From Rhizobium jaguaris (GTDB lineage Bacteria > Pseudomonadota > Alphaproteobacteria > Rhizobiales > Rhizobiaceae): DNA of 64,000 bases. Positions within the stretch are counted from its first letter, which is position 1; each line of letters begins with the position of its first letter. The position numbers were made by a program, and so were the translations under genes. The notes under the pieces are model-generated. The model searched no databases. It was given only the letters and a program-made list of their open reading frames with translations, and was not told the origin of the DNA. The stretch covers positions 124,001 through 188,000 of the forward strand of contig NZ_CP032697.1 in NCBI RefSeq assembly GCF_003627755.1, in the 5' to 3' direction. This document shows positions 29,236 to 44,284 of this stretch, piece by piece.

Positions 29236-29985
29236 TTAATGCTTTTCGTAAAGCACTCCACGGTCCGGAATTGGATCGGATATGCCGCAACTGCGCAATG
29301 CGTGCCAGTACAGAGCGGCGTTGTTGGAAAGCACAGGCTTGCCAATCCAGTTTTCCGCCATCTGGGCGAAAGCCGCCATCGGTACATTGGTGCCGACTTG
29401 GACCACGGCCTCCACCTCTGGGCGGTTCACGTTGACTACAGCATCCCTGAGATCCGCCAAGGTGACATGAGAAATATTTGATGGAGTGCGGCCGCCCAAA
29501 CCGTGGGTGGCGATGACCTCAATCCCGCTATCGGCGAAAAAGCGGGAGACCGGCTCGTCGCCGAGTTCCAGATAGGGCGAGATCAAGCCGATGCGACGTA
29601 CGCCGCCAAGTGCTTCGAGGGCAGAAGTGATGGCGTCCGCGCTTGTGATGATCTTGGGGCCGCCGCCGGCGACGGTCAGTTCCCGATGCAGGGCGAGATG
29701 AGCTTCTCGCCCTTTCCAGTAACCGTCCGGCGATACCGCTGCAATTATAGCCGCAAGGCCGCAATGGCGGAGGCTACGAACCGCATCGGGTGTAGCGCGG
29801 CGAATATCTTCGATTACTTTGTTGAAGCCCGCTTGATGCGTCAGCGAGTCATCTTCGATGACGATCCGGGCGATGTGGTTTGTTACGTCAAATGGGCGCA
29901 TGTCGTCCATTTCCGGCTGCGCAGATGTATTGGTAGAAGGGACGGCGATCCCAATCCGCAGACGTTTTCCTAAGAAGTTGCTCAC
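29236..29985 (-). CDS. Maleate isomerase / arylmalonate decarboxylase-like protein
   Basis: About 249 residues of the Asp/Glu racemase superfamily. The N-terminal RIGIAVPSTNTSAQPEM and the C-terminal GKPVLSNNAALYWHALRSCG match maleate cis-trans isomerase and AMDase proteins. The two positions that normally carry catalytic Cys appear replaced (AAIIAAVSPDG and VVQVGTNVPMAAF lack Cys), so activity may differ. AGGAG lies directly before ATG 29991 but 6 bp before GTG 29985, which favours the GTG as start. It is the first gene of the operon; the synthetase begins 146 bp further on. Confidence 0.7.
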   Translation of the reverse strand: MSNFLGKRLRIGIAVPSTNTSAQPEMDDMRPFDVTNHIARIVIEDDSLTHQAGFNKVIEDIRRATPDAVRSLRHCGLAAIIAAVSPDGYWKGREAHLALHRELTVAGGGPKIITSADAITSALEALGGVRRIGLISPYLELGDEPVSRFFADSGIEVIATHGLGGRTPSNISHVTLADLRDAVVNVNRPEVEAVVQVGTNVPMAAFAQMAENWIGKPVLSNNAALYWHALRSCGISDPIPDRGVLYEKH

Positions 29986-30215
29986 GCCCATCTCCTGAAT
30001 TCGATATACTCTTTGTCGAATGCTCGACGGCCACGGCCGCCCCCGATTTTCTGAACTATTTGGCGCTGCCGGGTCATGAAGACCCGGACGCTGCGTTCGC
30101 GGTTGAGTAGGCTAGAGCTACATCGATTGCCCTGAGATCCTTCCGACCGGACGGCTTCCTGCTCACAAACATCCTATGGTTGCTAACATGAAACGTTGGA
30201 TCAATGCTGCGCTGC

Positions 30216-30245
30216 ATTATGGAATGAACGTTCATTAACAGTCAA
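30216..30245 (-). promoter_or_regulatory. Promoter of the isomerase-synthetase operon
   Basis: Minus-strand TTGACT (30245 to 30240), an 18-bp spacer and CATAAT (30221 to 30216). The operator fills the spacer, so binding of the repressor would exclude RNA polymerase. Confidence 0.6.
30217..30238. promoter_or_regulatory. TetR-type operator 1 (synthetase operon)
   Basis: 22-bp sequence with left half TTATGGAATGA and right half GTTCATTAA; the centre contains the 14-bp perfect palindrome AATGAACGTTCATT. It lies between the -35 and -10 boxes of the minus-strand promoter. Near-identical sequences occur before tetR and before the reductase gene. Confidence 0.72.
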
Positions 30246-30617
30246 GACGAATTTTCGCAAAGGCAAAAAATTTCTTACATTTATACTGTTGACATTATTA
30301 CACTCAATCCATTAGCACCGAGATGGCATAGGCGACATGTTTCAGAAACACTACAAATGATTTCATGTATAGATTGCTGTATTATTTTCACATTGCAGGC
30401 TTGCGGGAATATTGAAATTATAGTTGTAGCAAACGTTCCTTCACGCCATGAATATATACGTTCATTACACCTGGGAGCGCCACCGCTGTCTGTCGTCGTT
30501 TGTAAAACCTGTGGGCATATTGCGAAGCAACGTGAGCAACAGCATGTTTTGCGATCTCAAATTTTCACCGCCATCAATTTCGGGTGACGGGTAGTGCTGC
30601 GGTCGTATTGTTAACCA
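30246..30617. other. AT-rich intergenic region with a possible half-operator
   Basis: This is the intergenic DNA between the divergent operons. It is distinctly AT-rich. ACGTTCATT at 30458-30466 repeats half of operator 1, perhaps an auxiliary site. The one short frame (30357-30587) has no ribosome site or recognised domain. Confidence 0.4.
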
Positions 30618-30645
30618 TTGACATACACGCAGATTTGGTTATGGT
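30618..30645 (+). promoter_or_regulatory. tetR promoter
   Basis: TTGACA at 30618-30623 and TATGGT at 30640-30645 are separated by 16 bp. Operator 2 overlaps the -10 box, which implies autorepression. Confidence 0.62.
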
Positions 30646-30660
30646 ACGGTCATTCCATAA
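30639..30660. promoter_or_regulatory. TetR-type operator 2 (tetR promoter)
   Basis: On the minus strand this 22-bp site reads TTATGGAATGA in its first half and GTACCATAA in its last nine bases. The outer ends TTATGG and CCATAA are exact inverted repeats. It covers the -10 box and ends just before the AGGGG ribosome site of tetR. Confidence 0.72.
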
Positions 30661-30672
30661 AGGGGATTCGTT

Positions 30673-31260
30673 TTGGCCCGACCGAGAGAATTCGACGAGG
30701 ACCGTGTTCTGGACGCTGTAATGGACACCTTCTGGCGCAATGGCTACGAGGGTACCTCGGCGCAAAACCTCGTTGACGCCACTGGTTTGGGGAGAGGTAG
30801 TCTTTATGCGGCTTTCTCCAACAAGGATGGTCTTTTTGAACAGGCTCTTCTTCGCTACCGCAAGTGCAGCCAGGCGCATGTCGACCAACTCCGACAGGAT
30901 GGTTCGCCGGTGGGACGCCTGCGCGAGATGATGATGAATATGATCAACGCCGATATGGAAGCCTCCTCGGAGAAGCGTGGTTGTCTCGCCACCAACAGTG
31001 CGATCGAGATGGCGGGCCGTGACCCGCGCGTAGCAGGCCTCGTGCGTGAGAATTTCACCATTTTGATGCAGGGTATTGAGGAGACCATCCGACGGAGTCA
31101 GGCAGCGGGAGAAGTCCGGCCAGAAGTTGACACAGCCAGCCTAGCGCTTTTTGTCTTTAATGCGGTGCAAGGTCTGCGTGTGCTAGCCAAATCCGCCCGG
31201 CCGCAGGACCGCAAAAAGCTGATCACAATCATCGATCAGACACTGGCTGTGATGACCTGA
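30673..31260 (+). CDS. TetR-family repressor
   Basis: The 195-residue regulator begins with TTG, which is supported by AGGGG 7 bp upstream and by the typical N-terminus MARPREFDEDRVLDAVMDTF. The HTH is GTSAQNLVDATGLGRGSLYAAFSNKDGLF (about 28-56). The C-terminal domain (RGCLATNSAIEMAGRDPRVAG) is of the TetR_C_16/YxaF-like type with a Cys that may respond to electrophiles or oxidants. Three 22-bp operator-like sites flank it: in its own promoter, before the synthetase operon and before the downstream reductase. It probably represses all three units until an unknown ligand appears. Confidence 0.85.
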   Translation: MARPREFDEDRVLDAVMDTFWRNGYEGTSAQNLVDATGLGRGSLYAAFSNKDGLFEQALLRYRKCSQAHVDQLRQDGSPVGRLREMMMNMINADMEASSEKRGCLATNSAIEMAGRDPRVAGLVRENFTILMQGIEETIRRSQAAGEVRPEVDTASLALFVFNAVQGLRVLAKSARPQDRKKLITIIDQTLAVMT

Positions 31261-31280
31261 TCGTCCTCTTTTTTGATCAA

Positions 31281-31302
31281 TTATGGAATGATAGTTCAAT
31301 AA
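31281..31302. promoter_or_regulatory. TetR-type operator 3 (reductase gene)
   Basis: 22-bp site with left half TTATGGAATGA and right half GTTCAATAA, located 26 bp before the reductase start. A TTGATC at 31273-31278 and AATAAT at 31298-31303 may be the promoter it covers, although the 19-bp spacing is long. Confidence 0.7.
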
Positions 31303-31327
31303 TTCCCACCTTTAACAGGAGCACTTT

Positions 31328-32203
31328 ATGACAGATATCCAGCCCGCTCAATCTACCCGCGCTGTTGCGGTGCTCGGCACCGGTCTTATCGGCGCAGCGG
31401 TCGCACGAAATCTTGCCCGCAAAGGCTTCGAAGTGCGAGCGTGGAACCGCTCGGCGCAGAAAGCTCGTGCACTCGCCACAGACGGCGTCACACCGTTCGA
31501 AGACATCAGTGCAGCGGTGCGTGGGGCCACGATTGTCATAACTGTGTTAAAGGATGGTCCGGCCACAAGGGAGGTGATGGCGGCGGCGCTCCCGAGCCTC
31601 GACAAGGGCACAGTATGGCTCCAGCTTAGCACCGTTGGACTCGAAGCGATCGAAGCTTTGGCCGACTTCGCGGCCGAGAAAGGCTTTATCTTCTACGATG
31701 CACCCGTGCAGGGGACTCGACAACCCGCCGAACAGGGCAAGCTGGTTATTCTGGCATCCGGGCCCGAAAGTGAGCGCCATATCGCCCAACCAATCTTCGA
31801 CGCCATCGGACAACGGACCCTTTGGGTATCCGACACGCCTGGAACCAGCAGCCGGCTCAAGCTCGCTCTTAACGCCTATGTTTTTGCGCTTACCCACGGG
31901 ACCGCAGAGACCCTGGCAATTGCGCGCGCACTCGGCGTCGACCCGGCACAGGTGATCGAGGCCGTGACGGGCGGTCCGCTCGACAGCGGCTATTTCCAGG
32001 TCAAGAGCGCGGCGATGCTGAAAGGCGACTTCACCACCAGCTTTTCGATCGAAAACGGCGTGAAAGACGCTGCACTGGTAGTTGAGGCGCTGGCCGGGAC
32101 GAACGTTCGTGCCGATCTCGCAGAGTCCGGCCTCGCGCGCTTCCAGCGCACGGCCAAAGCCGGCCACGGCGACAAAGACATCGCCGCCACTTTTCTCGCC
32201 TGA
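31328..32203 (+). CDS. NAD(P)-dependent beta-hydroxyacid dehydrogenase / imine reductase family
   Basis: The 291-residue enzyme has an N-terminal Rossmann fold with VLGTGLIGAAVARNLARKGF (about 14-33) and WNRS for cofactor binding. The substrate motif is FYDAPVQGTRQPAEQGKL, and the catalytic-lysine helix reads SRLKLALNAYVFALTHGTAE (about 178-197). This is the 3-hydroxyisobutyrate dehydrogenase superfamily, which includes imine reductases; the exact substrate is not readable. The start has AGGAG. An operator identical in half to those of the synthetase operon lies just upstream, so it probably belongs to the same regulon. Confidence 0.82.
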   Translation: MTDIQPAQSTRAVAVLGTGLIGAAVARNLARKGFEVRAWNRSAQKARALATDGVTPFEDISAAVRGATIVITVLKDGPATREVMAAALPSLDKGTVWLQLSTVGLEAIEALADFAAEKGFIFYDAPVQGTRQPAEQGKLVILASGPESERHIAQPIFDAIGQRTLWVSDTPGTSSRLKLALNAYVFALTHGTAETLAIARALGVDPAQVIEAVTGGPLDSGYFQVKSAAMLKGDFTTSFSIENGVKDAALVVEALAGTNVRADLAESGLARFQRTAKAGHGDKDIAATFLA

Positions 32204-32284
32204 ATGGATGATGATGACCGCACCATCCGGCTAGTAGGCCAATACGAACCTTTAGCGTCAACCACGTAGAGAAGAGGAGATAAC

Positions 32285-32794
32285 ATGTCGACGAAAAACT
32301 TTGAGTGGGGTCCGCAAGCCAAGGCCCTGCATGTGCAACTTCAGCATCCCATTTCAAAATTTGCCGGCAACTTTCGCTGGAGCGCTGACGTGTGGCCCGA
32401 CGAAGATGATCTTTCCAAGAAGGAGACGTGGGAGGGCACTTCTACACACGTCCTGGCGTGCCAAGGCCGTTTTGTTCACATGGTCATGCATGGCAAAATG
32501 GACGACAGCGACTGGGAAGGAAATCACATCTTCGGCCTCGGCCCCGACGGCGTGAGCATCCAAGAAGTTAGCTTTAACAAATATGGAACCTTCGCCACTG
32601 CCACGTCAAAAGGTGTCGTAAGCGGTAACAGCTTCGCCGTGTATGGTTCAACAACGGAGCCGTCACGCGGCATTGAGCCCTATCGCACCATCTATACTGT
32701 GCTGAATGACAATGAGATCGAAATCGAGATCTTCATGACGTCGCCAGCCGGGCGCGAGAGCAAGGCTAAACATCTCAAACTGACGCGCGTCTAA
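32285..32794 (+). CDS. Conserved hypothetical protein, beta-rich
   Basis: The 169-residue soluble protein has a clear AGAGGAGA ribosome site. It is rich in Trp and beta-forming residues (FRWSADVWPDEDD, VHMVMHGKMDDSDWEG, YRTIYTVLNDNEIEIEIFM). This resembles DUF1579-like or lipocalin-like barrels, but I cannot assign a family with confidence. Its stop is 12 bp before the first precursor-peptide gene, so it may share a transcript with the RiPP cluster or simply lie next to it. No signal peptide. Confidence 0.6.
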   Translation: MSTKNFEWGPQAKALHVQLQHPISKFAGNFRWSADVWPDEDDLSKKETWEGTSTHVLACQGRFVHMVMHGKMDDSDWEGNHIFGLGPDGVSIQEVSFNKYGTFATATSKGVVSGNSFAVYGSTTEPSRGIEPYRTIYTVLNDNEIEIEIFMTSPAGRESKAKHLKLTRV

Positions 32795-32806
32795 TGGGAG
32801 GCGATC

Positions 32807-32977
32807 TTGACAATAGGGCACAGTGACGGCTTGACCGAGTCTAACGACGAAAAAAACGTAGCCGGCCCGGATGAGTGCGGGAGCGTGCTCATCTTGGAGC
32901 AAATAGAGCTTGCCGGCGATGAGGACGAAACAATGATCGTATTCACGAAATGCTGTTGCACGAGCTCGACATCGTGA
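32807..32977 (+). CDS. RiPP precursor peptide 1 (TTG start)
   Basis: A 56-residue peptide that starts with TTG, supported by GGGAGG 5 bp upstream. The first 48 residues form an acidic leader containing LEQIELAGDEDETMIVFTK; the C-terminus is CCCTSSTS, all residues that YcaO cyclodehydratases can turn into thiazol(in)es or (methyl)oxazol(in)es. The second small gene 54 bp downstream has the same plan and a matching leader end (ELxxDE, then IVF, a basic residue, then Cys). The position directly before an E1-like protein and three YcaO genes supports the assignment. The cleavage site is unknown; after Lys48 or inside IVFTK is possible. Confidence 0.82.
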   Translation: MTIGHSDGLTESNDEKNVAGPDECGSVLILEQIELAGDEDETMIVFTKCCCTSSTS

Positions 32978-33031
32978 CCTTTCCCCAGACTGCATAGTCG
33001 AAACCAGCGTCTTTCCGGAGGAGCGGAAAAT

Positions 33032-33199
33032 ATGACTGAAAATCAGGAGAATCCAGCAGTTTTCATTTTCAAAGACATCCCGGAGCCGGGGACAACACTT
33101 GGCGAGCTTTCCATCGAGACCGTGGAACTGAATGACGACGAGCAGCCGCTTGATATCGTATTCGTGCGCTGCAGCACCACCTCGACCTGCTCATCGTAA
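33032..33199 (+). CDS. RiPP precursor peptide 2
   Basis: A 55-residue peptide with ATG 33032 and a GGAGGAG site 8 bp ahead. The acidic leader contains LSIETVELNDDEQPLDIVF, and the C-terminus is VRCSTTSTCSS, giving a nine-residue Cys/Ser/Thr-only core CSTTSTCSS if cut after Arg46. Leader residues shared with precursor 1 are ELxxDE and IVF followed by one residue and a basic residue. Neither peptide has a Gly-Gly cleavage motif or a nitrile-hydratase leader. This fits a TOMM (thiazole/oxazole-modified microcin) precursor; the product structure cannot be read from sequence. Confidence 0.85.
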   Translation: MTENQENPAVFIFKDIPEPGTTLGELSIETVELNDDEQPLDIVFVRCSTTSTCSS

Positions 33200-33279
33200 G
33201 CGCGCCAACTTATTGCCAGTATTCAACCGGAAGCTGAAATGGACAGTCACGACCGTGACGTCCACAGGGAGCCTCGCAT

Positions 33280-34344
33280 ATGGTGTTCGACGTAAGGGTC
33301 CGACTATCCGATTTGCAATGGACGGTCACAGCCGACGATGGATTCATTATCGGCAAGAAAGCGACCGTCCTGCGCAAAATTCGAGGCTCGGTTTTGCTGC
33401 GCCGGATTGGTGATGCCTTGCTTGATCGCTTACGAGGACAAACCATACCGCTCGTGCAGTTGCGTGCCGATCTCTGCCAAGAGTTCCCCCCAGCCGTCGT
33501 CGAAGACGCTCTACGTCAATTTCATAGCTTGCAGATAATCGAATACACAGAACAGGCTGAAGAAAGTGGTCCGATCGTGGATCACCCCTTCCACGACTAT
33601 TTCAGGTCTGCCAGCACCGACCCAGCCATTCCATTGGATAGGCTCCGACAGAGTAGGATCGTCGTCGTTGGAGGGGGGCAGCTCACGGCTGCAGCGACAT
33701 GGGAACTAATGGGATCAGGCATCGGTGACGTGTCGGTGATTCCGCTCTCGGATGTTGCGGGCGCATTGGCTCGCGCTTGCAATGGATGGGAAGTCGTACC
33801 CAGGGTTCTGCCTTTGATGGCATTTGATGATCCGGGCTTTGGCGAGGAGTTGCGGCAGAGCGACTTGGTCGTCATGTGCGCTGATCAACCCCTGAGCCGT
33901 CTACGTGAATTTCCCCAACTCAATGCGCTTTGCCTGGAGCTGGAGAAACCTTGGCTTTGCGTCGCACTCGATGGGGATCGCATCGATTTAGGTCCTCTCT
34001 TCGTGCCAGGTGACACAGGGTGTTTCCGTTGTTTGGAATTACGCGAAGAAAGTCATCTGCCTCACCGGGCGGAGTACTTCGCCTTCAAGCGCAATATTGC
34101 TGCACCTTGGATGGTAGTAAACGCCGATTCGCCGCCTCCAGCTTTACGCATGGCGGCAGCAATGGTGTCGCTGGAAGCGGTGCGCATCCTCTCGCGCCAG
34201 TCCTTTCCTAGCACTTTCCAGACTTTGGTAGAGCTCGAATTGTCCACTTATAACCTGCAGACACACACCCTGGTGCGGGTGCCTTTTTGCGATGCTTGCG
34301 GACCACAAAATCGACAACCCCTCCGACGGGCATGGAGCATTTGA
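33280..34344 (+). CDS. TOMM E1-like partner protein (ocin-ThiF type)
   Basis: The 354-residue protein of the ThiF/E1 superfamily is the kind that binds the precursor leader and activates YcaO. The N-terminal ~90 residues are a winged-helix-like region with TVLRKIRGSVLLRRIGDALL, likely the RiPP recognition element. A Rossmann-like strand RIVVVGGGQLTAAATWELMG follows at about 126. Two zinc-type Cys pairs, CFRC (about 248-251) and CDAC (about 338-341), are intact. The adenylation motif of true E1 enzymes is not evident, as in other TOMM C proteins. The start at ATG 33280 has AGGGAG. It overlaps or abuts the first YcaO gene. Confidence 0.83.
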   Translation: MVFDVRVRLSDLQWTVTADDGFIIGKKATVLRKIRGSVLLRRIGDALLDRLRGQTIPLVQLRADLCQEFPPAVVEDALRQFHSLQIIEYTEQAEESGPIVDHPFHDYFRSASTDPAIPLDRLRQSRIVVVGGGQLTAAATWELMGSGIGDVSVIPLSDVAGALARACNGWEVVPRVLPLMAFDDPGFGEELRQSDLVVMCADQPLSRLREFPQLNALCLELEKPWLCVALDGDRIDLGPLFVPGDTGCFRCLELREESHLPHRAEYFAFKRNIAAPWMVVNADSPPPALRMAAAMVSLEAVRILSRQSFPSTFQTLVELELSTYNLQTHTLVRVPFCDACGPQNRQPLRRAWSI

Positions 34345-34346
34345 AA

Positions 34347-35636
34347 ATGAGCGTGTTGGCCGCAGAACGAGCTTGCTTGGATAGAGCGGGACTGCTTTTC
34401 GGATCGGGTCGCCTGGGACCGGTATCTAAGCTGCGCCACCATCGAAATATGGCCGACTATCCGGGTTTTTTTTCTGTGACGGCCGAAGTGATGAGCCGCA
34501 ATTCCCTCGGTTCGCTGATCGCCGCGGGTGGTGGTCTAACCGCGTCCCGAGCGCTGAGCGCGGCATGCGGCGAGGCAATGGAGCGATTGTGCTTGCAAAC
34601 GCCGGCTGTATCCACGGACCCGGTCACGGCGAATACCCTTTCTGGCGAAGTGATTGATCCTCGACGATTATTGTACTTCACGCCCGAACAATATGCACAA
34701 ACAAATTTCCCTTTGAAGCCGTACAAGTCAAGTGTGCCGATCCACTGGGTCTCTGGTCATTCGCTTGTCGACGAACGCCCGGTTTGGGTTCCCGCTTTTG
34801 CCGTCTATGGCGCAACAGCGGTGAGCGACCCGTTTGGACCACATGACCATATAGTTTCGACCGGCTGCGCCTGTGCCCTGACGAAAGATGCAGCTATTCT
34901 TAACGGCCTCTATGAGGTTATTGAACGCGATAGCTTCATGATCCATTGGGAAAACCGTTGGCCAGGAAGCGACAGACCACTTCCCGACTATTGTTTGTCG
35001 CTCAGCGACCGATTGGCGAAATGCGGATTCCAGCTCGAAGTGCGATGCCTAGATAATGACTTGGCTATACCGGTTGCTGTCGCAGCCGTGGCGGATCAGG
35101 AGAACGGCAGAGCGTCCATGGCCTTTGGGGCTGCCGCCCGCGCCAATTGGAATCAGGCGGCCGAACGTGCTTGTGAAGAAGCCGTTTTGACGAGTTTCTG
35201 GGTCACGGGACAACTCAGTCGCGCTCATGCCGACTTCTCGGACGTCTACCGCGAAATGGACGGCCTTGCCGATCCAGCGCGCCATGCCTTCCTTTACGGG
35301 TTTGACGAGATGAAGGAGACGGCGAGATGTTTGTTCGAACCGATCGATGAAATTCCTGAGCTCGACAGCGGCCCTGCAAACCCAGATGCCGAAATGACGT
35401 GGCTGCTCGGCAAACTTGTCGGTGCTGGCATGGAGCCATTCTTCGTGGACATCACGCTGGATTCAATTGCAGCTCTCGGTTTTACAGTTCAAAAAGTGCT
35501 CGTTCCGGGTCTAACGCCGTTGGCGCGCGGGCGACACGCACGACCGCTTGCCAATGGACGATTGGCCAACGTCCCGCGGCGGCTTGGTCGAGTTGCTTGT
35601 CGGGATTTCAATCCTGAACCTCACCCATTTCCCTGA
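34347..35636 (+). CDS. YcaO cyclodehydratase 1
   Basis: The 429-residue YcaO protein uses ATP to cyclise Cys/Ser/Thr in RiPP precursors, or for related backbone chemistry. ATP-site blocks are SRALSAACGEAMERLC (E76, E79, R80), AILNGLYEVIERDSFMIHWE (about 183-202) and AAERACEEAVLTSF. It ends in EPHPFP, the proline-rich C-terminus required by azoline-forming YcaOs. Of the three YcaOs here it alone keeps Asn in the second block (NGLYEVIER). ATG 34347 has GGAG 8 bp ahead and lies 2 bp after the E1-like stop, so it is the best candidate for the direct partner of that protein. Confidence 0.87.
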   Translation: MSVLAAERACLDRAGLLFGSGRLGPVSKLRHHRNMADYPGFFSVTAEVMSRNSLGSLIAAGGGLTASRALSAACGEAMERLCLQTPAVSTDPVTANTLSGEVIDPRRLLYFTPEQYAQTNFPLKPYKSSVPIHWVSGHSLVDERPVWVPAFAVYGATAVSDPFGPHDHIVSTGCACALTKDAAILNGLYEVIERDSFMIHWENRWPGSDRPLPDYCLSLSDRLAKCGFQLEVRCLDNDLAIPVAVAAVADQENGRASMAFGAAARANWNQAAERACEEAVLTSFWVTGQLSRAHADFSDVYREMDGLADPARHAFLYGFDEMKETARCLFEPIDEIPELDSGPANPDAEMTWLLGKLVGAGMEPFFVDITLDSIAALGFTVQKVLVPGLTPLARGRHARPLANGRLANVPRRLGRVACRDFNPEPHPFP

Positions 35637-35645
35637 GGAACGAAG

Positions 35646-36461
35646 ATGATGGATTCTGTCATTCCCTTTTGCGAACGTGCTGCCGAAGCTCGAAACTGGT
35701 TTGAGGATCCCGAACTGTGGGTAGTAGCAACTGATTTTGAAAGATCATACCGCCGTTTGCCGCATCAATTGCACTTCGAGATCGCTCTTTGCAAACTTGG
35801 GCACGTGCCGAGGCGGATTTGTGTGACGTCCGTAAGGGATGGGCAGGCGTTGGCTCCCGTCGCTGAGCGTTTGCCGGGGGTTATTCTGAGAGCGAGAGAA
35901 CCTTTTCCTGCATTCCTACCGCAAGCCCGAGCCGCATTACCGACAAACGTTTCAATCGAATGCGGATGGCCGCACGAGCAGGACACCGAATGTGAGCCGT
36001 TCGATTTGATTTGTGGTTATTCCGATATGCGGCTGTGGCCCGAACTCGCCGCCGGGCTGACGCGCGTAAAATCGCTTCTTGCACCAAATGGCATGGCCTA
36101 TTTTCAGGACTTTCGCGCCGACATGTCCGAAGCAATCAGGCGCGAGCTTATCAGTTCGATTCCCGATCCTCACCAGCGCGAGTTCTTTGCAGTACAAGCT
36201 AACGCTGCACTGCCGGCGGGAGTTGTCACCAACGCCCTGCGGACAGCCGGTTTCAAGACTTGGTCTCTAAGTTGGGGGGGATTGGGTGGAGCGCCAGCAC
36301 GAAGCGCCGCTGCCTTGTCGATGATCCAATGCAGTCCGGAATTGGCGCGCCTGCTGTTCCAATTACAAAGCTTTGGCTTCCGGCGCGCGTCAGCGGCCGA
36401 ATTGATGTTTCATTTGTTCGTCTTTGGAGATGGAAGGAAACCAAATGAAGCAAACTGCTAG
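35646..36461 (+). CDS. Methyltransferase-like protein of the RiPP cluster
   Basis: The 271-residue soluble protein is coupled to its neighbours (9 bp after YcaO 1; end overlaps the dehydrogenase start by 17 bp). The segment FDLICGYSDMRLWPELAAGLTRVKSLLAPNG-like pattern (about 120-150) resembles strands 4 and 5 of class I SAM-dependent methyltransferases. The usual glycine-rich motif I is not obvious (RRICVTSVRDGQALAPVAER is at its place), so it could be a degenerate fold or a binding protein. It has no close named family known to me. Start ATG ATG has GAGGAA ahead. Confidence 0.6.
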   Translation: MMDSVIPFCERAAEARNWFEDPELWVVATDFERSYRRLPHQLHFEIALCKLGHVPRRICVTSVRDGQALAPVAERLPGVILRAREPFPAFLPQARAALPTNVSIECGWPHEQDTECEPFDLICGYSDMRLWPELAAGLTRVKSLLAPNGMAYFQDFRADMSEAIRRELISSIPDPHQREFFAVQANAALPAGVVTNALRTAGFKTWSLSWGGLGGAPARSAAALSMIQCSPELARLLFQLQSFGFRRASAAELMFHLFVFGDGRKPNEANC

Positions 36462-37287
36462 CGTTGGCAATTTCTGGTTTGTTCAACCCGACGATCTCAG
36501 AACGACGCTCGCCGGGGACTATCACGGTCACAGCAAAATCACGGAGTTTTCCGTGGAGTTCGGCACTGCGGATCCGAAGAAAACGCAAAAAACGCAGAAG
36601 CTTATCGATGCGGTGGCGGGCCACGGACACGACTTTTCCTTCTATCCGAAGATCGCACTGGATCCGCTTGACTGGCCAAGCATCAACGTTCCGCTCGGTC
36701 AGTTGTTGCAGGCCCGACGCTCCAAGCGCGTCTTTTCGGAAATGCCGCCATCCTTTCGGCAGATATCAACGCTCCTCGCACGCGGAGCCGGGCCTAACGG
36801 TACTTTGAGGATGGAGGGTGGTGTCACTCGCCCGCTACGGACCTATCCTTCTGGAGGTGGCCTCTATCCCTTGGAGGTCTATGTCCTGGTATTGTCCTGC
36901 GAGGGTATCGCGCCGGGCCTTTACCATCACGATGTCGATGTCAGCGCCCTTACTTTGCTCCAAGAGGGTGACCTGAGCGCAAAGGCGCGCAGCGCATTCA
37001 TCAATGACCCCATGTTGAACAGGACAGGTATCGTCATACTGATTAGCGCGGTCTTCCAGCGAAGCAGCTTCAAGTACGGTGAGCGTTCATATCGCCTAGT
37101 GCACCTGGAAGCGGGTCATCTCGTCCAGAATCTTATCCTGACAGGTCAGGCCGTTGGCCTTTCGGTAGTGCCTGTCATGGGTTTTGTCGATCGCCGGATT
37201 GAAGACATCATCGGTGTCGATGGCGTCGAGGAGTCAATCCTCTATTGCGCCGCCGTGGGGCAAGCCGAACATGAAGAAGCGGTTTGA
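36445..37287 (+). CDS. SagB/ThcOx-type dehydrogenase of the RiPP cluster
   Basis: The 280-residue flavin-dependent dehydrogenase oxidises azolines to aromatic azoles in TOMM pathways. The nitroreductase fold is seen in LLQARRSKRVFSEMPPSFRQ (FMN phosphate binding), RPLRTYPSGGGLYPLEVYVL (central strand) and GHLVQNLILTGQAVGLSVVPV (helix before the second FMN block). The N-terminal ~85 residues are a SagB-type extension. ATG 36445 has a GGAAGG site and is inside the previous gene. Its presence suggests that at least some rings become thiazoles or oxazoles, not only azolines. Confidence 0.86.
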   Translation: MKQTASVGNFWFVQPDDLRTTLAGDYHGHSKITEFSVEFGTADPKKTQKTQKLIDAVAGHGHDFSFYPKIALDPLDWPSINVPLGQLLQARRSKRVFSEMPPSFRQISTLLARGAGPNGTLRMEGGVTRPLRTYPSGGGLYPLEVYVLVLSCEGIAPGLYHHDVDVSALTLLQEGDLSAKARSAFINDPMLNRTGIVILISAVFQRSSFKYGERSYRLVHLEAGHLVQNLILTGQAVGLSVVPVMGFVDRRIEDIIGVDGVEESILYCAAVGQAEHEEAV

Positions 37288-37957
37288 AATCGTCGGGAGT
37301 TCATCTTCGATGATAAGTGTGCCCTCTTTTGATGCCGACATGCCGGACCATGCGGTCGAGTATGCGGCGTCGGAACTGCTCTCGCACACTGCACGTCTCT
37401 TAGGCATTTGCGCACGACCGGTAGTTTTGTTTATCATTGACGACTGCGACTTCTTTGCCGCCACGCGTCAGTGCCGGCTGCCCAGTAAGCCGGTAGTCTG
37501 CGTATCCGCCGATAATTTGCGCGCCGACGTGATTGCCCATGAGTTTGTTCACGCTCTCCTACCCACCAACTGGCTATTTCTTGCGGAAGGCTTCGCAGGA
37601 GCAATGGGCTGCCATATCGGAAACGATTGTTCGCACCTGCTTTTCGAATCACTGACGCCAAATGAAGCGATCTGTCACTTCTGGTCGGGGACGCCTACCC
37701 TAGAAGATTTGATTGATGCCCGTGTCGGACAACCGTCCCTTCTTTCTGCGGAACGATTTATCGAACCGGAGGGTCGGATGGCGCATCTGCTTGCCGCCTC
37801 GTTTTGCGGATTTTGCCTGGCAGAATGGCCCGAGATTGCCGTCACGCTCGGAAACGAAATTGTCTCCGATTGCCGTGAATTCCTCGCCAGAGTGACGGGA
37901 ACAGCGATCGAGGACCTTTTCGTGCAATGGGAGGAGAGCCTTGCAATTTGTAAGTGA
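37271..37957 (+). CDS. HExxH metallopeptidase-like protein, candidate leader peptidase
   Basis: The 228-residue protein has HEFVH at 90-94 and a glutamate at 106 (WLFLAEGFAGA). This is the gluzincin arrangement for a zinc ligand set His-His-Glu with the catalytic Glu91. The rest matches no family I can name. It overlaps the dehydrogenase stop by 17 bp, and YcaO 2 follows 16 bp later, so it is inside the modification operon. The inferred role is removal of the acidic leader from the two precursors. No signal peptide, so it acts in the cytoplasm. Confidence 0.72.
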   Translation: MKKRFEIVGSSSSMISVPSFDADMPDHAVEYAASELLSHTARLLGICARPVVLFIIDDCDFFAATRQCRLPSKPVVCVSADNLRADVIAHEFVHALLPTNWLFLAEGFAGAMGCHIGNDCSHLLFESLTPNEAICHFWSGTPTLEDLIDARVGQPSLLSAERFIEPEGRMAHLLAASFCGFCLAEWPEIAVTLGNEIVSDCREFLARVTGTAIEDLFVQWEESLAICK

Positions 37958-37973
37958 AAGGAGGACTGGCACC

Positions 37974-39290
37974 ATGAGACGATCCGCCAGGATGGATGCG
38001 TTCGAGGCGGCGACATCCCAGATGGGACGGCTCATCAGCCCCCGCGGCGGGCCGATCTGCAAACTTAGCGAGCGACGTGCATGGCGCGACGGTTTGGCAA
38101 TTGCCGACTATATTACGCAAATCGGTTTTGGCGAGATGGCTCACCATTCCCCCGATCCCACAGGGGGTGGTTCCGTTGCGAAATCGCGCGCTCTGTTGGC
38201 AGCAGCCGGGGAAGCCTTGGAGCGGTATTGCTTGAGCCTGTGCCCAGTTGAAGGCCTAAGCTTTTCAATCGTAGAGGAAAATTTCGGTGCATGCTACTCT
38301 CTCGATGACTTAAAGTGGTTTATCGATCAACAGTACAGTACGCCTGGTTTTCCTTTCGAACCACCTCGAGCTGACACACCGTTTGCATGGATCCCAGGGT
38401 TCTCACTTTTGCGCACCAGCGAGGTGAGCGTACCCGCCAGCCTTGTCTATCTGCCTTACCGATTGCGCGCGGGCGAACAGGCAACAAGCTGGCAAACTTC
38501 CGCAGGAACGAGCTGCATGGATTGTCCTGACGAGGCAGCAGTTCGGGCCGTCCTTGAGCTCGTCGAGCGCGAAGCCCTGACGATTTGTTGGGAAAGCCGC
38601 TGTCCGTTTCCGCCTGTTAATGCCGAACAGCTAGCTGATGTTTGCGCGGAGTTTGCCTTTCACCGCAGCCCGATAATGATCAAAGCCTTCGATCTGACGA
38701 CGGACATCGGCATTCCTGTTGTTCTGGCAATCGCGTTTGCCACTGGTCGGGGGCCTGCCTTGGCCATCGGCACGGCCGCCGAGCTTTGTGCAGAACATGC
38801 TTTGAAAAAGGCAGTTGAAGAAGCTTGCACCTCATGGCGCTCGGTCACGTACCTTTATCGCGACCAGGGATCGATGCCAGACGATCTGATGGCTCGAATG
38901 GAGGCTGGCGCTCGATCATCAGATCATTCGGTTTACTACGCCTATCCACAAAACCGACATCACTTTGATTTTCTCCTGTCGTCGCCGCTGGTCCCCCGCG
39001 TCCTGTGTTCGACCGCGCGCCATTCGACAACCCGTCTCGCAACGATTGCAGATTTGTTGAAGGCAGCACATCAAGAGGTGGTTCTGATTGACGTGACTTC
39101 GACCGAAATAGCCGATCATGGGCTCTTCGTGGTGCGGGCCGTTTCACCAACATTGGTGCGTCCAACCCTTGGACGCCAAGCCCGTCATCTCAGAAATCCG
39201 CGTATAAGGGAAATCCCTATGAAGCTCGGTTACGTCGACGATATCCCCACTACCGCGAGCCTCTATCAAAACGCACACCCATTTCCATAG
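37974..39290 (+). CDS. YcaO protein 2
   Basis: The 438-residue YcaO family member has ATG 37974 with AGGAGG 9 bp ahead. ATP-site blocks are SRALLAAAGEALERYC (E80, E83, R84), AAVRAVLELVEREALTICWE and ALKKAVEEACTSWR, and it ends in NAHPFP. Sequence outside these blocks differs strongly from the other two (for example YAYPQNRHHFDFLL), so it is not a recent duplicate. In the second block Asn is replaced (RAVLELVER). It may act on another precursor or catalyse a different YcaO reaction (thioamide, amidine); this is inference. Confidence 0.85.
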   Translation: MRRSARMDAFEAATSQMGRLISPRGGPICKLSERRAWRDGLAIADYITQIGFGEMAHHSPDPTGGGSVAKSRALLAAAGEALERYCLSLCPVEGLSFSIVEENFGACYSLDDLKWFIDQQYSTPGFPFEPPRADTPFAWIPGFSLLRTSEVSVPASLVYLPYRLRAGEQATSWQTSAGTSCMDCPDEAAVRAVLELVEREALTICWESRCPFPPVNAEQLADVCAEFAFHRSPIMIKAFDLTTDIGIPVVLAIAFATGRGPALAIGTAAELCAEHALKKAVEEACTSWRSVTYLYRDQGSMPDDLMARMEAGARSSDHSVYYAYPQNRHHFDFLLSSPLVPRVLCSTARHSTTRLATIADLLKAAHQEVVLIDVTSTEIADHGLFVVRAVSPTLVRPTLGRQARHLRNPRIREIPMKLGYVDDIPTTASLYQNAHPFP

Positions 39291-39356
39291 ACCGGTCTCG
39301 CAAATGTCAGAAGAATTTTCGACGGCAAGACATATGCAAGCGAGGGTAGAATAACC

Positions 39357-40661
39357 ATGTCGTGCCATGACCGAATCCGCACCGACCCAATAGATGTCTT
39401 GCGAATCCTTGGCGGACGCGGAGCGCCATTGGAGCCTTTGATTGTAGATAGAAACCAAGTCGACGACATGCCGTTTCATTCAATGACCGTGACGGGGCGT
39501 GCGGTTGGAGGAAGACAGTTCAGCGGCGCAGGCATCGGCCAGTCGTGTGCAGCATCGTTATGGTCAACGCTTGGAGAAGGTGTCGAGCGGCTATGTTTGG
39601 CAAGCCCGCCTCCGGATCTTCCTGTTGGCCGCGCGCAAGATTTGCCCGGACAGGCGCTGACGGCGGAACAGTGGCCGCTTTTTACCGAAGAGCAGCTCCG
39701 CGCCCATGACTTTCCTTGGTCCAATTTGTGCGAGGACCTCATCTGCCGTTGGTCATGCGGGGTTCGCCTCCTCACTGGTGTTCCTTATTGGGCACCGGCC
39801 TCGCTCATTTGGGTTGACCGCCACGCTGATCGCTTCACCGCCGGATTTTCGACCGGTACGGCCTGCCACACTGATCCTGCACAAGCCACTCTTTCGGCCA
39901 TATTGGAGGTGGTGGAGCGGGACGCATTTGCCATTCTTTGGGAAGCAAGGGCCTGCGTCCCCTGTCTGGACCCCCAAGCTCAGTGGCAAAGACCGATGGT
40001 GCGGCAACTTGATAGAGCTCTGGCGCACAGGAGGCAGCGCCTCCTCTTGCGCGATATGACGACAGATCTTGGAATTCCCGCTGTTTGCGCCGTCATTCAA
40101 GACCTCCAAGCCAGACGCCCGGCCCTGGTAGTGGGCACGGCCGCCGACCAAACATATGAAGCAGCATGCTTTCGGGCCGCGAGCGAGGCATGGTTTTGCT
40201 GGACTTGGATGCGGGATCAACATCGGCGAGATCTCAACGCCTCCTTCGACAGGGCGTGGGAAGAGACCACCGTCCCGAAGGACATGCGGGCGCATGCTTT
40301 TCTGTATGGCTTTCCTGAGGCCGGGTTCATGGCTCAACATCTGACCGCGCCAGCGTTCAGATTTCGCTCTGTCGCGGCAGAGACTAGGTCGGAACGGCCC
40401 GCGCTCGCGACCCAGCTATTAATCCAGAAGCTCGAGGCGGCAGGTTTTCCTGTCCTTGAGTTTCAGATCACGCTGCCAGAGATTGCGGCACTGGGACTTG
40501 TCGTCCACAAGGTGCTTGTACCGAAGCTGACGCCGCTTAGCATAGGCCGTTTTTGTCGAGCACTTGCCAACAGTCGAATTAGGACGGTGCCGCTATGCTG
40601 CGGCTGGTCGCATCATGGCGTTTTACCACCCGCTGCCGCCTATCCGCATCCGCTGCCGTAA
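39357..40661 (+). CDS. YcaO protein 3
   Basis: The 434-residue third YcaO is the last gene of the cluster. Blocks: AASLWSTLGEGVERLC (E74, E77, R78), ATLSAILEVVERDAFAILWE and ACFRAASEAWFCWTW; the C-terminus is AYPHPLP. The third block has AASEAW instead of the usual EEA, and an unusual Cys/Trp-rich stretch (ARACVPC, WFCWTW). The C-terminal region (IAALGLVVHKVLVPKLTPLS) is closer to YcaO 1 than to YcaO 2. A 66-bp gap separates it from YcaO 2; the ribosome site is weak. No transporter or immunity gene follows. Confidence 0.84.
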   Translation: MSCHDRIRTDPIDVLRILGGRGAPLEPLIVDRNQVDDMPFHSMTVTGRAVGGRQFSGAGIGQSCAASLWSTLGEGVERLCLASPPPDLPVGRAQDLPGQALTAEQWPLFTEEQLRAHDFPWSNLCEDLICRWSCGVRLLTGVPYWAPASLIWVDRHADRFTAGFSTGTACHTDPAQATLSAILEVVERDAFAILWEARACVPCLDPQAQWQRPMVRQLDRALAHRRQRLLLRDMTTDLGIPAVCAVIQDLQARRPALVVGTAADQTYEAACFRAASEAWFCWTWMRDQHRRDLNASFDRAWEETTVPKDMRAHAFLYGFPEAGFMAQHLTAPAFRFRSVAAETRSERPALATQLLIQKLEAAGFPVLEFQITLPEIAALGLVVHKVLVPKLTPLSIGRFCRALANSRIRTVPLCCGWSHHGVLPPAAAYPHPLP

Positions 40662-41425
40662 CGGAGCTGTGGCTCCCCTTTCCGACACTACCAACTTGCA
40701 CTCATAGAAAGCGGTTCCTCGAGGATGAAGTCTGTCAATGCCGATCGAAACTTACTCAGTATCGGGGAGTTGCTCCAGCGATGACGCCGAGCGCGGTGTT
40801 CGAACCTGGACGTCGCCGGCCGATGTCGTGCGCCTTCTCCTGATGCGACGCGTGTCGAGACACCCATTCCGTGAGAGGGGCTCTGTTGCACATATTCCGC
40901 TTGGTCGCGTGAAGGCGTCTTCAACCGTGATCTAATTCATGCGGTTGTCCGGGTCTGCTGATAGAGCTCCCCCAACGACCTCCCTGTGATTTGACAAACT
41001 AGCTCCGGCGAAGTGCCGTTGTCCCACAAGACCACCCTTTCAGTCGCCGACGAATCGCAATCGCCGATCGAGGCGCGGGCTTCGCAAGTTGCCTTCACCA
41101 ACAAAGGTCATCGAGAAATCAACGATTCTTCCACGGCGGCAGCTCCGGAAATCTCTTGCGCGTGGACCGCACGGCGCCTGCTCAGGTCCGAACGCGTTTG
41201 CGGATTGCTAAGCACATACCTCGAGGCGTTCCTTCTTGTCACGTCGACAACAGATCGCCCCTGCCTGCGGAACTTCGAAAGCCGTATCGCGCTGTTTACT
41301 CGCCACCGTGGTCATGCACGCCCCTTCATGTGACAAAGCATCCTTGTAGCGTAGATTTAGTTGCACAACATGAAGACGAACCATCCGGGGGGCCGGTGCG
41401 TTATCAAGCGAACGAGCAGGAGGAA
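40662..41425. other. 760 bp without a supported gene
   Basis: After YcaO 3 only short frames occur, with no ribosome sites and no recognised domains. A weak hairpin (GGAGC and GCTCC around 40663-40676, followed by a short T run) could end the RiPP transcript. Confidence 0.35.
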
Positions 41426-42064
41426 ATGTTGGCTTCCGAGATCGAACTGAAGCTGGAACCTACACCCGAAGCTGTCGAGGCCGCTCTTGGTTCGGTCCTG
41501 CTTGGCGAACCGACAAGTATCCTTCAGCAAACATCGACGTATTTCGATACGGCAGATCGAAAACTATTCTACCGCGGCTTCACCCTCCGCATCCGGAAGA
41601 CCGGAAATAGTCTCATCCAGACAGTGAAGGCCACCGGGGAAAGTGCGTCGCTATTTGCCCGGTCGGAATGGGAGACACCGGTCGAGCAAGGCCAGCCAGT
41701 CCTCGATCATACCAGCCCGATCGAAAACGAGTTCGGAACGGACATCGTTCTCGTGCCAAAGTTCGTCGTCGAGATCGAGCGTCGCATCTGGAATGTCGAC
41801 GAACAGCGTTCGAAGATCGACGTTGCAGCTCCCGGCCGTGATGCGCGCCATCCTGCGCAAAAGGCTTACATACGAGGCTTCATACAACGCGAATTCACCG
41901 ACCAGCGTCCCGACTTTTATCGCGAAGCCGGAACATGGATCTCCGAAGGCCGGCTCAAGTACAAGGAAGACATCGTCGACGGGCTCGAAAACGCTCCGGA
42001 GGCTTTTCTCGGTCTGCTGGAAGGAAGGAATTTCGGAAAGCTGATCGTGCGCGTCGCATCCTGA
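41426..42064 (+). pseudogene. CYTH triphosphatase fused to an oxidoreductase fragment
   Basis: From ATG 41426 the first ~130 residues are a CYTH domain (signature EIELKLEP, then STYFDTADRKLF, RIRKTGNSLIQTVKA, VVEIERRIWNVDEQ). From about 41826 the DNA matches the 3' part of the NADP-dependent oxidoreductase gene at 55.99-56.22 kb: QLPAVMRAILRKRLT is encoded in another frame, then a one-base deletion near 41868 brings RGFIQREFTDQRPDFYREAG into the CYTH frame, ending LLEGRNFGKLIVRVAS. So the long frame is a chance fusion of two truncated genes. The CYTH part lacks its C-terminal CHAD or tail region. Confidence 0.72.
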
Positions 42065-42257: not shown

Positions 42258-43487
42258 TCAAGCCGGCGTACCAATCCGCCACTGATAAGGCGGCGGCGTT
42301 CCGTTGACCGCGAAGTCTCCGATAATGCGGTCCTTGTAGATACGAGGGTTGTGAGAGGAGAGCGTGCGGGCGTTGCGCCAGTGGCGGTCCAGCCCATTCG
42401 GCTTCTTGGTCGCCGAGGCGCCCAGTGCGTCGAAAAGGATGGTGGATGCCTGCAGGGTCAGATCCGAAACGACAGTCTGGGCTTGCGCCGTTTCGAGTTC
42501 GGCGATCGCGTTCGCCTTTTCCTCCAGCTCCGGATCATCGATGAAGCGGGTGTCGAACGCCCGCTGGATCGCAGCAGCCGCCTGGATTACAATTGCACTT
42601 GAACTATAGGCGCCGCCGCGAATGCGCCCGATGACCTGCAGAACCTGCGGGTCTTGGCTGGAACGGGGGGCTGCCGCATGCGTGTAAGTCCGCGTGCGCT
42701 CCGCGACGGCCTTGGCGACATCGTTGGTGATCGCCCGACCGATGCCCGCAAGGGTCGCCAGGTGAACGAGCTGATAAAAGGCAGCACCATATTTGAAGCG
42801 ATCATCATCAAGGACGATGTCGTCCTCGGTCACCTTGACGTTGGTGAATGTTGTCGTGCCGCTTGCCGTAAGGACCTGACCAAACCCATCCCAGTCGTCG
42901 ACCACCTCAATGCCTTCGGCATGACGGCGCACGGCAACCGCAATCCCCTCGCCGTTTGCATTGGAGGCCCCGACGTCGATCCAGTCGGCGTAGAGCGAGC
43001 CGGTCGTATAATATTTGGCGCCATTGAGAACCGGGGAACCGCCGTCGTTCGAGACATGTGTCGAGAAGCGGTCGAGCCCTGCTCCGTTTCCAATCTCCGT
43101 CCACGCGCTGCCGACAATCTCACCACGACCAATCCGCTCGAACCAGACTTTCTGTCGCTCAGTCGACTTCGAATTAAGAATGTCCTCGGTGAAGCCGAAA
43201 TGGGCGCGCAGCGCCTGGGTGATGTTGGAATCCGCTGCCGAAAGTTCGATCAGCAGATTGAAGAATTCCGGCAGCGTCGCGCCCTGCCCGCCATGTGCGC
43301 GCGGTAGACGAACCGCGCCGAAACCAGCCTGCTTCAGCCGATCGATGGCATCGTAGGGCAGATCGCGCTCCAGTTCGCGGCGGTTGGCATCCTTGGCGAT
43401 ATCGGCGAAAATCGGGCGAAACCGCGCCGCGATCGTCTCGTATCTCTCACTCGGGCCGGCGGCCCAGCCTTGTGCGATCTGTGTCAT
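42258..43487 (-). CDS. Acyl-CoA dehydrogenase-like flavin monooxygenase (SfnB/DszC family)
   Basis: The 409-residue protein has an acyl-CoA dehydrogenase fold. N-terminal helices read YDAIDRLKQAGFGAVRLPRAHGGQGAT, the middle beta domain GSAWTEIGNGAGLDRFSTHV, and the C-terminal region GASATKKPNGLDRHWRNARTLSSHNPRIYK. The last segment (LDRHWRNxRTxxxHxP) marks the DszC/SfnB branch of reduced-flavin oxygenases acting on sulphur or nitrogen compounds. It is the last gene of a minus-strand operon whose first gene is an LLM-type monooxygenase. Its ATG overlaps the livF stop by 1 bp. The substrate is unknown. Confidence 0.82.
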   Translation of the reverse strand: MTQIAQGWAAGPSERYETIAARFRPIFADIAKDANRRELERDLPYDAIDRLKQAGFGAVRLPRAHGGQGATLPEFFNLLIELSAADSNITQALRAHFGFTEDILNSKSTERQKVWFERIGRGEIVGSAWTEIGNGAGLDRFSTHVSNDGGSPVLNGAKYYTTGSLYADWIDVGASNANGEGIAVAVRRHAEGIEVVDDWDGFGQVLTASGTTTFTNVKVTEDDIVLDDDRFKYGAAFYQLVHLATLAGIGRAITNDVAKAVAERTRTYTHAAAPRSSQDPQVLQVIGRIRGGAYSSSAIVIQAAAAIQRAFDTRFIDDPELEEKANAIAELETAQAQTVVSDLTLQASTILFDALGASATKKPNGLDRHWRNARTLSSHNPRIYKDRIIGDFAVNGTPPPYQWRIGTPA

Positions 43488-44284
43488 CAGTGTGGGTATC
43501 CCTGTTGATCCTGTGTTTCGCCGCGGTTGCCGCCGAGATAGAAATCATGGACGTCGTCACGCGCCCGCAGCTCCTCCGCCGTCCCGGAAATGGCGACGCG
43601 GCCGTTTTCGAGAATGTAGCAGTAGTCGGCATAGCGCAGCGCCAGGTTGACGTTCTGCTCGGCGATCAGAAAGCTGACGCCGCCCTGCTTGTTGAGCGTA
43701 TGGATGATCTCGAAGATCTCCTGCACGATGATCGGCGCAAGGCCCATTGACGGCTCATCCAGAAGCAGGAGACGCGGCTTGGTCATCAGCGCACGGCCGA
43801 TGGCGACCATCTGTTGTTCACCGCCGGAGGTAAGGCCGGCTTTCGTCCGACGCTTTTCCTTGAGCCGCGGAAACCAGCTGTAGATCTGCTCCAGATCGGC
43901 CTGCAGGTCGCGCCGCCTGGGGCGGCGCAGGAAGCCGCCCGACAGGATATTTTCCTCGACCGTCAACTGCGGAAAGCAGTGTCGGCCTTCAAGAACCTGG
44001 ACGACACCCTTGGCCACCAGCCGCGAGGCGGACAGGCGATTGATCGCCTCCCCGTCCCAGGTGATCGACCCTCGGCTTATGTGGCCACGCTCCGGCCCGA
44101 GCAGGTTCGATATCGCCTTTAGCGTCGTCGTCTTTCCGGCGCCATTGGCTCCAAGGAGGGCGACGACCGCCCCCGCCTCGACCTTGAGCGAGACATCCCT
44201 CACGGCCAGGATCGCCTGGCCGTAAAGAGCCTCGATGGTGTGGATCTCAAGCTGTCCGCCCTGTGTTGCGCCAACGACGCTCAT
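43487..44284 (-). CDS. livF: ABC transporter ATP-binding protein, LivF type
   Basis: The 265-residue ATPase has Walker A LLGANGAGKTT (about 43-53), Q-loop near VVQVLEGRHCFPQLTVEEN, signature LTSGGEQQMVAIGRALM (about 150-166) and Walker B LLLLDEPSMGLAP. It matches LivF of branched-chain amino-acid importers (HAAT family). It lies between the substrate-binding protein and the SfnB-like gene on the minus strand and pairs with LivG at 47692. HAAT importers move amides, ureas and aromatic acids as well as amino acids, so the name does not fix the substrate. Confidence 0.9.
   Translation of the reverse strand: MSVVGATQGGQLEIHTIEALYGQAILAVRDVSLKVEAGAVVALLGANGAGKTTTLKAISNLLGPERGHISRGSITWDGEAINRLSASRLVAKGVVQVLEGRHCFPQLTVEENILSGGFLRRPRRRDLQADLEQIYSWFPRLKEKRRTKAGLTSGGEQQMVAIGRALMTKPRLLLLDEPSMGLAPIIVQEIFEIIHTLNKQGGVSFLIAEQNVNLALRYADYCYILENGRVAISGTAEELRARDDVHDFYLGGNRGETQDQQGYPH

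Follow-up and report, generated by a model that had tools for sequence, protein, structure and literature searches.

A putative thiazole/oxazole-modified microcin gene cluster with three YcaO proteins in Rhizobium and in a Magnetococcales genome

A stretch of 64,000 nucleotides from Rhizobium jaguaris (contig NZ_CP032697.1, positions 124,001 to 188,000; referred to as the window, in whose numbering coordinates are given) carries a compact unit of ten genes that includes two short peptide genes with tails of Cys, Ser, and Thr, and three genes for YcaO proteins. On the evidence of its sequence, this cluster is a real, conserved subfamily of the thiazole/oxazole-modified microcins (TOMMs), and it is undescribed as far as the literature was searched. 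The best reading of the sequence is a new TOMM subfamily whose product would be a short polyazole that begins with Arg or Lys and has up to eight or nine contiguous rings. A modest balance of probability favors a pathway for a ribosomally synthesized and post-translationally modified peptide (RiPP) of the TOMM type, in which three YcaOs and a SagB-type dehydrogenase would act on the tail, an HExxH protein would remove the leader, and a non-methylating relative of the methyltransferase BpumL would bind the product. The unit consists of the following genes.

32285..32794, + strand: DUF1579 protein, 169 aa, encoded at the head of the conserved unit (PF07617, 38.2 bits against a cut-off of 25.2)
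32807..32977, + strand: precursor peptide 1, 56 aa, TTG start, ending in MIVFTK-CCCTSSTS (terminal Cys/Ser/Thr run of 8)
33032..33199, + strand: precursor peptide 2, 55 aa, ending in DIVFVR-CSTTSTCSS (terminal run of 9)
33280..34344, + strand: E1-like TOMM leader-binding protein, 354 aa (TIGR03882, 71.5 bits against 36.9)
34332..35636, + strand: YcaO1, SagD-type cyclodehydratase, ending in PEPHPFP (TIGR03604 over cut-off; orthologue group 100/100; motifs)
35646..36461, + strand: BpumL-related methyltransferase-like protein without GxGxG (four-copy profile against the PDB)
36445..37287, + strand: SagB-type dehydrogenase, 280 aa (TIGR03605, 140.5 bits against 78.4)
37271..37957, + strand: HExxH protein, 228 aa, candidate leader metallopeptidase
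37974..39290, + strand: YcaO2, SagD-type, ending in NAHPFP (TIGR03604 over cut-off; orthologue group 100/99; motifs)
39357..40661, + strand: YcaO3, SagD-type, ending in YPHPLP (TIGR03604 over cut-off; orthologue group 99/97; motifs)

An earlier note on this DNA had named nine of these genes (the two precursors, E1-like, YcaO1-3, methyltransferase-like, SagB, and HExxH) between 32807 and 40661. All nine reading frames are open there, and the family calls for the E1-like, the three YcaO, and the SagB-type proteins were borne out, each above its curated TIGR cut-off. The extent of the unit needed correction at its start, where the DUF1579 gene, whose end is separated from precursor 1 by 12 bases, comes first in all four copies described below. 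Judged from the open reading frames (ORFs) and from how long the database forms P0012 and P0025 are, the likely starts are 34332 or 34347 for YcaO1, 36445 for SagB, 37271 for the HExxH protein, and 37974 for YcaO2.

The unit holds both elements by which we recognized a TOMM cluster: SagD-type YcaOs together with a leader-binding partner (the three YcaOs score 243.1, 240.8, and 229.0 bits against the TIGR03604 cut-off of 219.25), and a short precursor with a Cys/Ser/Thr-rich core beside the enzyme genes. A SagB-family dehydrogenase beside the cyclodehydratase, typical of linear azol(in)e-containing peptides (LAPs), is also present. A profile built from the E1-like proteins of four copies matched MccB, TruD, LynD, and MusD in the PDB. 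From these enzyme families, we infer that the cluster forms azoles. The scan of the ten proteins of the unit found no macrocyclase, lantibiotic dehydratase, pyridine synthase, or TfuA family; a thiopeptide pathway was rejected for lack of the dehydratase and the synthase, in agreement with the earlier note, which had remarked on the lack of thiopeptide dehydratases and pyridine synthase.

The tails of the precursor peptides lie beyond what chance produces. Six-frame ORFs of 30–120 aa were scored for consecutive terminal Cys, Ser, and Thr residues, and only 2 of 633 such ORFs in the window ended in a run of at least five; these were precursors 1 and 2, with runs of eight and nine. Among 4426 control ORFs from other loci, from which eleven cluster-bearing loci had been excluded, none reached eight, one had seven, and two had five. 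The pair predicted in the earlier note is therefore upheld. Paired precursors were found in the window copy only, and each of the other three copies has a single frame with such a tail between the DUF1579 and E1 genes. When the five precursors (55–61 aa) were aligned, each had an acidic leader and the motif [IV]VF-x-[KR], followed by nothing but Cys, Ser, and Thr up to the stop; they diverge in both leader and core. The precursors of R. leguminosarum Vaf10 and R. tibeticum end in R-TTCTTCSTS and that of the Magnetococcales copy in VVFYR-STCTTCSTS, so that Arg or Lys precedes the run in all five. Because every precursor ends with this run, a follower peptide is missing. In work with another YcaO, the C-terminal residues of truncated substrates stayed unmodified (PMC10676384).

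The same gene order was found in four copies: in the window, in R. leguminosarum Vaf10, in R. tibeticum, and in a Magnetococcales metagenome-assembled genome (MAG). A tblastn search of plasmids with YcaO3 matched three places in plasmid unnamed2 of Vaf10, where the annotated order is DUF1579, short hypothetical, E1, YcaO, methyltransferase, SagB, hypothetical, YcaO, YcaO. When genome contigs were scanned with an E1 profile built from two copies, 30 loci came up, of which one (L010, R. tibeticum) has the same set. At the other 29, profiles of the HExxH, methyltransferase-like, and DUF1579 proteins found no match at E ≤ 1, an absence that carries little weight for those contigs of only 4–10 kb; several of these loci hold SagB with a fused or separate YcaO. 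The Magnetococcales copy came from a search of the phylum with the methyltransferase-like profile, which matched 25 of 398 genomes, strongly only in the R. jaguaris genome itself and in the MAG (G786, E = 4.3e-69), with the remaining 23 at 6.0e-6 or weaker. Contig C42 of this MAG carries the complete set, again in that order, and its SagB is identical to database protein P0027 from a Magnetococcales bacterium. The earlier note had proposed a new class of rhizobial azole peptide; that this is a RiPP cluster of the TOMM type with three YcaOs stands, but "rhizobial" is too narrow for a set with one copy in a Magnetococcales MAG. The note would have given up its reading if precursors and enzymes parted in related genomes or if the set matched a described cluster. 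Precursors and enzymes occur together in all four copies found, and the literature search, which left most subscription journals and all supplementary tables uncovered, brought to light no published cluster with this combination of genes; Vaf10 may figure in a genome-mining table as an unnamed node.

Because Vaf10 and R. tibeticum have 9078 bp in common at 98.7%, these two copies are, by sequence, one recent lineage, whereas detectable DNA similarity between the window and Vaf10 is limited to a single stretch of 63 bp. The proteins of the window copy are 26–48% identical to those of the other copies, with the precursor lowest and SagB highest (E1 36–39%, SagB 45–48%, and DUF1579 28–30% against the three others). 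Between Vaf10 and Magnetococcales, the values are 76% for DUF1579 and SagB, 62% for YcaO1, 61% for E1, 59% for YcaO2, 55% for YcaO3, 50% for the methyltransferase-like protein and the precursor, and 48% for the HExxH protein. Vaf10 and R. tibeticum are separated by 45 synonymous and 41 nonsynonymous changes, and we count the overall pN/pS of 0.28 in favor of a TOMM pathway; the values for E1 (0.61), the precursor (0.59), and YcaO2 (0.57) are higher but depend on few changes.

The three YcaOs each have a counterpart in every copy. In a tree of 22 rows, with few outgroups and three of these on long branches, YcaO1, YcaO2, and YcaO3 formed one group each across the four copies (100/100, 100/99, and 99/97). 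The triple set is therefore, as far as the tree can tell, old and maintained. All twelve cluster YcaOs fell together at 86/91, which is under the tree's own threshold, and which suggests that the paralogues arose by duplication within the cluster. All twelve agree at thirty-five columns, among them those of G-E-x-x-E-R and E-x-x-E-R, which we take to correspond to ATP/Mg sites of YcaO enzymes, and those of the final P-x-P. The ends read PHPFP in YcaO1, P[HI]PLP in YcaO3, and xHPFP in YcaO2. Azoline-forming YcaOs carry a C-terminal PxP motif (Travin et al. review, PMC7136475), and because the two inner motifs and the final P-x-P are kept in all twelve proteins, the simplest reading is that all three are azoline-forming enzymes. 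Elsewhere in the R. jaguaris genome, a fourth YcaO (C1:4219531-4220475) lies nearer to the TIGR03266/TIGR00702 models and scores under the SagD cut-off.

The HExxH protein and both precursors had no family match at E = 0.1. In the HExxH protein, H90, E91, H94, and E106 are invariant in the four copies, which gives the gluzincin arrangement of HExxH with a downstream Glu, though the spacing to E106 is short. Its resemblance to the M30 and M1 peptidases is one of fold in a structure model, with no sequence match in Pfam or the PDB. It looks like a gluzincin-type metallopeptidase and is a candidate leader peptidase; M1-type metallopeptidases that act as endo- and aminopeptidases take off leaders in other RiPPs (PMC10885120). 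The DUF1579 gene sits at the same place in all four copies. Because this protein is conserved like SagB between Vaf10 and Magnetococcales, it may be part of the pathway or of its immunity, and we regard it as a candidate for immunity or for handling of the peptide. Among the proteins of the window copy, it ranks with the less conserved.

The methyltransferase-like protein is related to BpumL, which we take to be a plantazolicin-type methyltransferase, but it probably does not work as one. No Pfam cut-off was reached (best 21.2 against 30). A two-copy profile matched BpumL at E = 0.0013, and with a four-copy profile, the best three PDB matches were 5dm2 (1.4e-9), 4kwc (BpumL, 1.8e-9), and 5dm1 (5.2e-9); the stretch in common includes A-x-x-W-[FY]-x-x-P. 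GxGxG is missing in all four copies: the position of ILDIGCGQG in BpumL reads VRDG in the window copy and ILDGAPAEW or ILDVSPATW elsewhere. The distance from the ILD point to [YF]D[LV]I is 57 residues in BpumL by hand count, 53 in the window copy, and 39 in the three others, which are shorter by some 18 residues in the cofactor region. Pfam methyltransferase models that stayed under cut-off covered only the second half of the domain in the R. tibeticum copy, began at profile position 7 in the window copy, and had no match at E = 0.01 in the Magnetococcales copy. The label in the earlier note is apt as a statement of kinship only. A structure model of the protein had a pLDDT of 40.6 and is no test of a cofactor-free binding role. 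The plantazolicin methyltransferase appears to need Arg followed by a thiazole (PMC4603692) and a polyheterocyclic backbone (PMC11285071), which agrees with the Arg or Lys ahead of the run here, and for this reason we guess that the protein may be a cofactor-free descendant that binds an azole peptide.

In the TOMM pathway that we favor, the acidic leader of the precursor would be bound by the E1-like protein, and the tail would be offered to the three YcaOs. Together, these would convert most or all of the eight or nine Cys, Ser, and Thr residues to azolines, each YcaO perhaps taking a subset defined by the kind of residue or by its place along the tail. Oxidation of the azolines to azoles would fall to the SagB-type enzyme, and the gluzincin-like HExxH peptidase would cleave off the leader at the conserved Lys or Arg or close to it, releasing a short, rigid polyazole led by Arg or Lys. 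The BpumL-related protein would no longer methylate and, with its fold retained, may bind the Arg/Lys-azole end; DUF1579 could serve in immunity or handling. The chemical steps, the cleavage site, the division of labor, and the roles of the last two proteins are all assigned here by inference. The three conserved YcaO groups and the tails of nothing but Cys, Ser, and Thr are the firmest findings, and a fully contiguous linear polyazole is the boldest step beyond them. A point that weighs against the scheme is that only two of five structure models of the HExxH protein were confident.

A bolder version, which we put forward as a tentative possibility, is that this subfamily, undescribed in the literature searched, has co-evolved YcaOs that divide the labor and cyclize the whole tail into the longest unbroken linear azole ribbon, and that a plantazolicin-type methyltransferase has become an azole-peptide binder free of S-adenosylmethionine (SAM). 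We know of no longer unbroken linear azole ribbon in a ribosomal peptide. If fully cyclized, the products would be small, rigid, cationic polyazoles with computed masses of about 760–880 Da and a composition like that of the telomestatin core. For full azole forms that start at the basic residue, the computed [M+H]+ values are 759.122 for precursor 1, 852.173 for precursor 2, 880.204 for the precursor of Vaf10 and R. tibeticum, and 866.188 for that of the Magnetococcales copy. With three conserved paralogues beside one tail of only Cys, Ser, and Thr, the cluster would offer a compact natural system for studying how YcaOs choose among these residues, and it would present a RiPP methyltransferase that has apparently lost its cofactor motif and is kept across bacterial classes.

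The foremost alternative is a plantazolicin-like product, with the BpumL-related protein working as an N-alpha methyltransferase that, through an unusual mode of SAM binding, places two methyl groups on the N-terminal Arg or Lys. BpumL and two like chains are its closest PDB relatives, the window copy has nearly the full BpumL spacing, and the basic residue ahead of the run is found in every precursor. The N-alpha methyltransferase of the plantazolicin family has a SAM motif, which is not found here, and the shortened cofactor region and partial Pfam matches also make this alternative unlikely. Plantazolicin clusters have one YcaO; this unit has three, together with the HExxH protein and DUF1579. 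The two systems are alike in the logic of E1-like protein, YcaO, and dehydrogenase, and in having Arg (here Arg or Lys) before heterocyclizable residues. However, plantazolicin cores consist of Arg, five heterocyclizable residues, two nonpolar residues, and five to six more (PMC4603692), whereas all five precursors here have a basic residue and an unbroken run of eight or nine to the stop.

It is somewhat less probable still that one or two of the YcaOs form azolines and the rest install a thioamide or amidine. Clusters are described with a second YcaO of other chemistry or without PxP (bottromycin, lactazolicins; PMC7136475), and YcaO2 has only a partial PxPxP. The position of all three window YcaOs above the SagD-type cut-off, the final P-x-P throughout, the tails restricted to Cys, Ser, and Thr past the basic residue, and the lack of a TfuA match argue against it. 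A three-ycaO cluster of Streptacidiphilus carbonis has two tfuA genes and is of the thioamide type (PMC8120280); we set it apart by its description only.

A head-to-tail macrocycle like telomestatin is improbable. Among published cores, that of telomestatin, CTTSSSSS, comes closest in composition: TlsC has eight contiguous Cys, Thr, and Ser residues, akin to the runs found here, and the tls cluster includes a YcaO and a flavin oxidoreductase. That pathway, however, uses one YcaO (TlsQ), a follower, and other partners (TlsO, R, S, and T) to make a macrocycle (PMC5469769), whereas our precursors lack a follower and the unit lacks a recognizable macrocyclase. That the window copy is decaying, or its peptides spurious, is very improbable: it is the most diverged copy, with a methyltransferase-like protein of different length, but all of its ORFs are open, the YcaO motifs are intact, the Cys/Ser/Thr runs stand far above background, and the gene order is kept in four copies.

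Other TOMM systems resemble the cluster more distantly. Phazolicin, a LAP from Rhizobium, and klebsazolicin follow the same TOMM logic (PMC6783444), but phzEACBD encodes a single YcaO together with an exporter, and phazolicin is a 27-residue product with spaced azoles (PMC6783444, PMC7136475). The clusters of lactazolicins and coryneazolisins combine a C protein with more than one YcaO (PMC7136475, PMC4603692). The former differ in having two YcaOs, one without PxP, long [Cxxx] repeats, and an exporter (PMC7136475), and the latter in having two YcaOs and lanthipeptide-like dehydratases (PMC4603692). Gallolytisins have nearly contiguous Cys runs (Cys4XaaCys4), but these contain Cys only with a spacer residue, and the clusters include ABC transporters (PMC4603692).

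The gene set looks rare, yet it extends across two bacterial classes. In many genomes, our searches scored only some of the candidates from the first look; a miss is therefore soft and does not prove absence. The HExxH protein matched 2 of 397 genomes in the order (its own, and G338 weakly at E = 2.7e-5), and the two-copy E1 profile matched 2 of 394 in the family (its own, and G482 weakly at E = 1.2e-5 with one internal stop). At E ≤ 1e-6, there were matches in 5 of 148 genomes of the genus, three of them full length, and in 15 of 385 of the class, full length only in R. jaguaris itself; in the class of the Magnetococcales MAG, 1 of 48 genomes matched at E ≤ 1e-15. Among the best 120 of 2256 matches in a protein search with the SagB profile, ranks 3–21 (P0027–P0045) are 43–53% identical to the window SagB, and some are named Magnetococcales, Chloroflexota, or Ardenticatena; P0028–P0045 may mark further copies.

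Other candidate loci were set aside. In Rhizobium sp. L51/94, pTiL51_94 (L007 8031-12428) has a different gene set: SagB, a 404-aa methyltransferase, and a single YcaO gene broken up by an IS3 element. The neighborhood in Paracoccus pAMI4 is that of a thiopeptide-type bacteriocin. Matches of E1 to E. coli plasmids made up 27 of 42 records, and the 18.75 kb region from ATCC 25922 has no annotated YcaO. On this plasmid (L042 8635-13527), genes for ThiF, MFS, methyltransferase, and GNAT proteins follow one another, an arrangement that resembles a microcin C-type cluster.

The R. jaguaris genome comprises 8.03 Mb over 4 contigs, and the window lies on contig C4. Within its 64 kb are the following replication and transfer genes, which, taken together, point to a conjugative-type plasmid as the carrier of the cluster.

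14800-16167: RepABC-type RepC
2225-4669 and 11274-13715: VirB4- and VirD4-like conjugation ATPases

Among the ten flanking ORFs scanned in the window are a TetR regulator, metabolic genes, and an import-type ABC system. The Vaf10 cluster is annotated with transposases and hypotheticals at its flanks, and the four ORFs scanned beside the Magnetococcales copy comprised a transposase, a metallo-beta-lactamase-fold hydrolase, a GmrSD-like domain, and one without a match. The family scan of the ten proteins recognized no exporter or immunity gene in the unit, and the nearest ABC ATPase found in the window (43487-44284, − strand) adjoins a periplasmic binding protein. The unit therefore lacks the efflux pump that is typical of LAP clusters, though not strictly defining (PMC6783444). 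Pumps of the host may export the product, or it may act within the cell. Promoter-like and terminator-like sites showed no excess over shuffled sequence, and positions 30000-42000 had no Rfam match. Upstream in the window, at 25160-29290 (− strand), a 1376-aa ORF encodes a single-module protein like the nonribosomal peptide synthetases (AMP-binding, PP-binding, and thioesterase domains), and a CynX/NimT-type transporter ORF (23649-25064) adjoins it.

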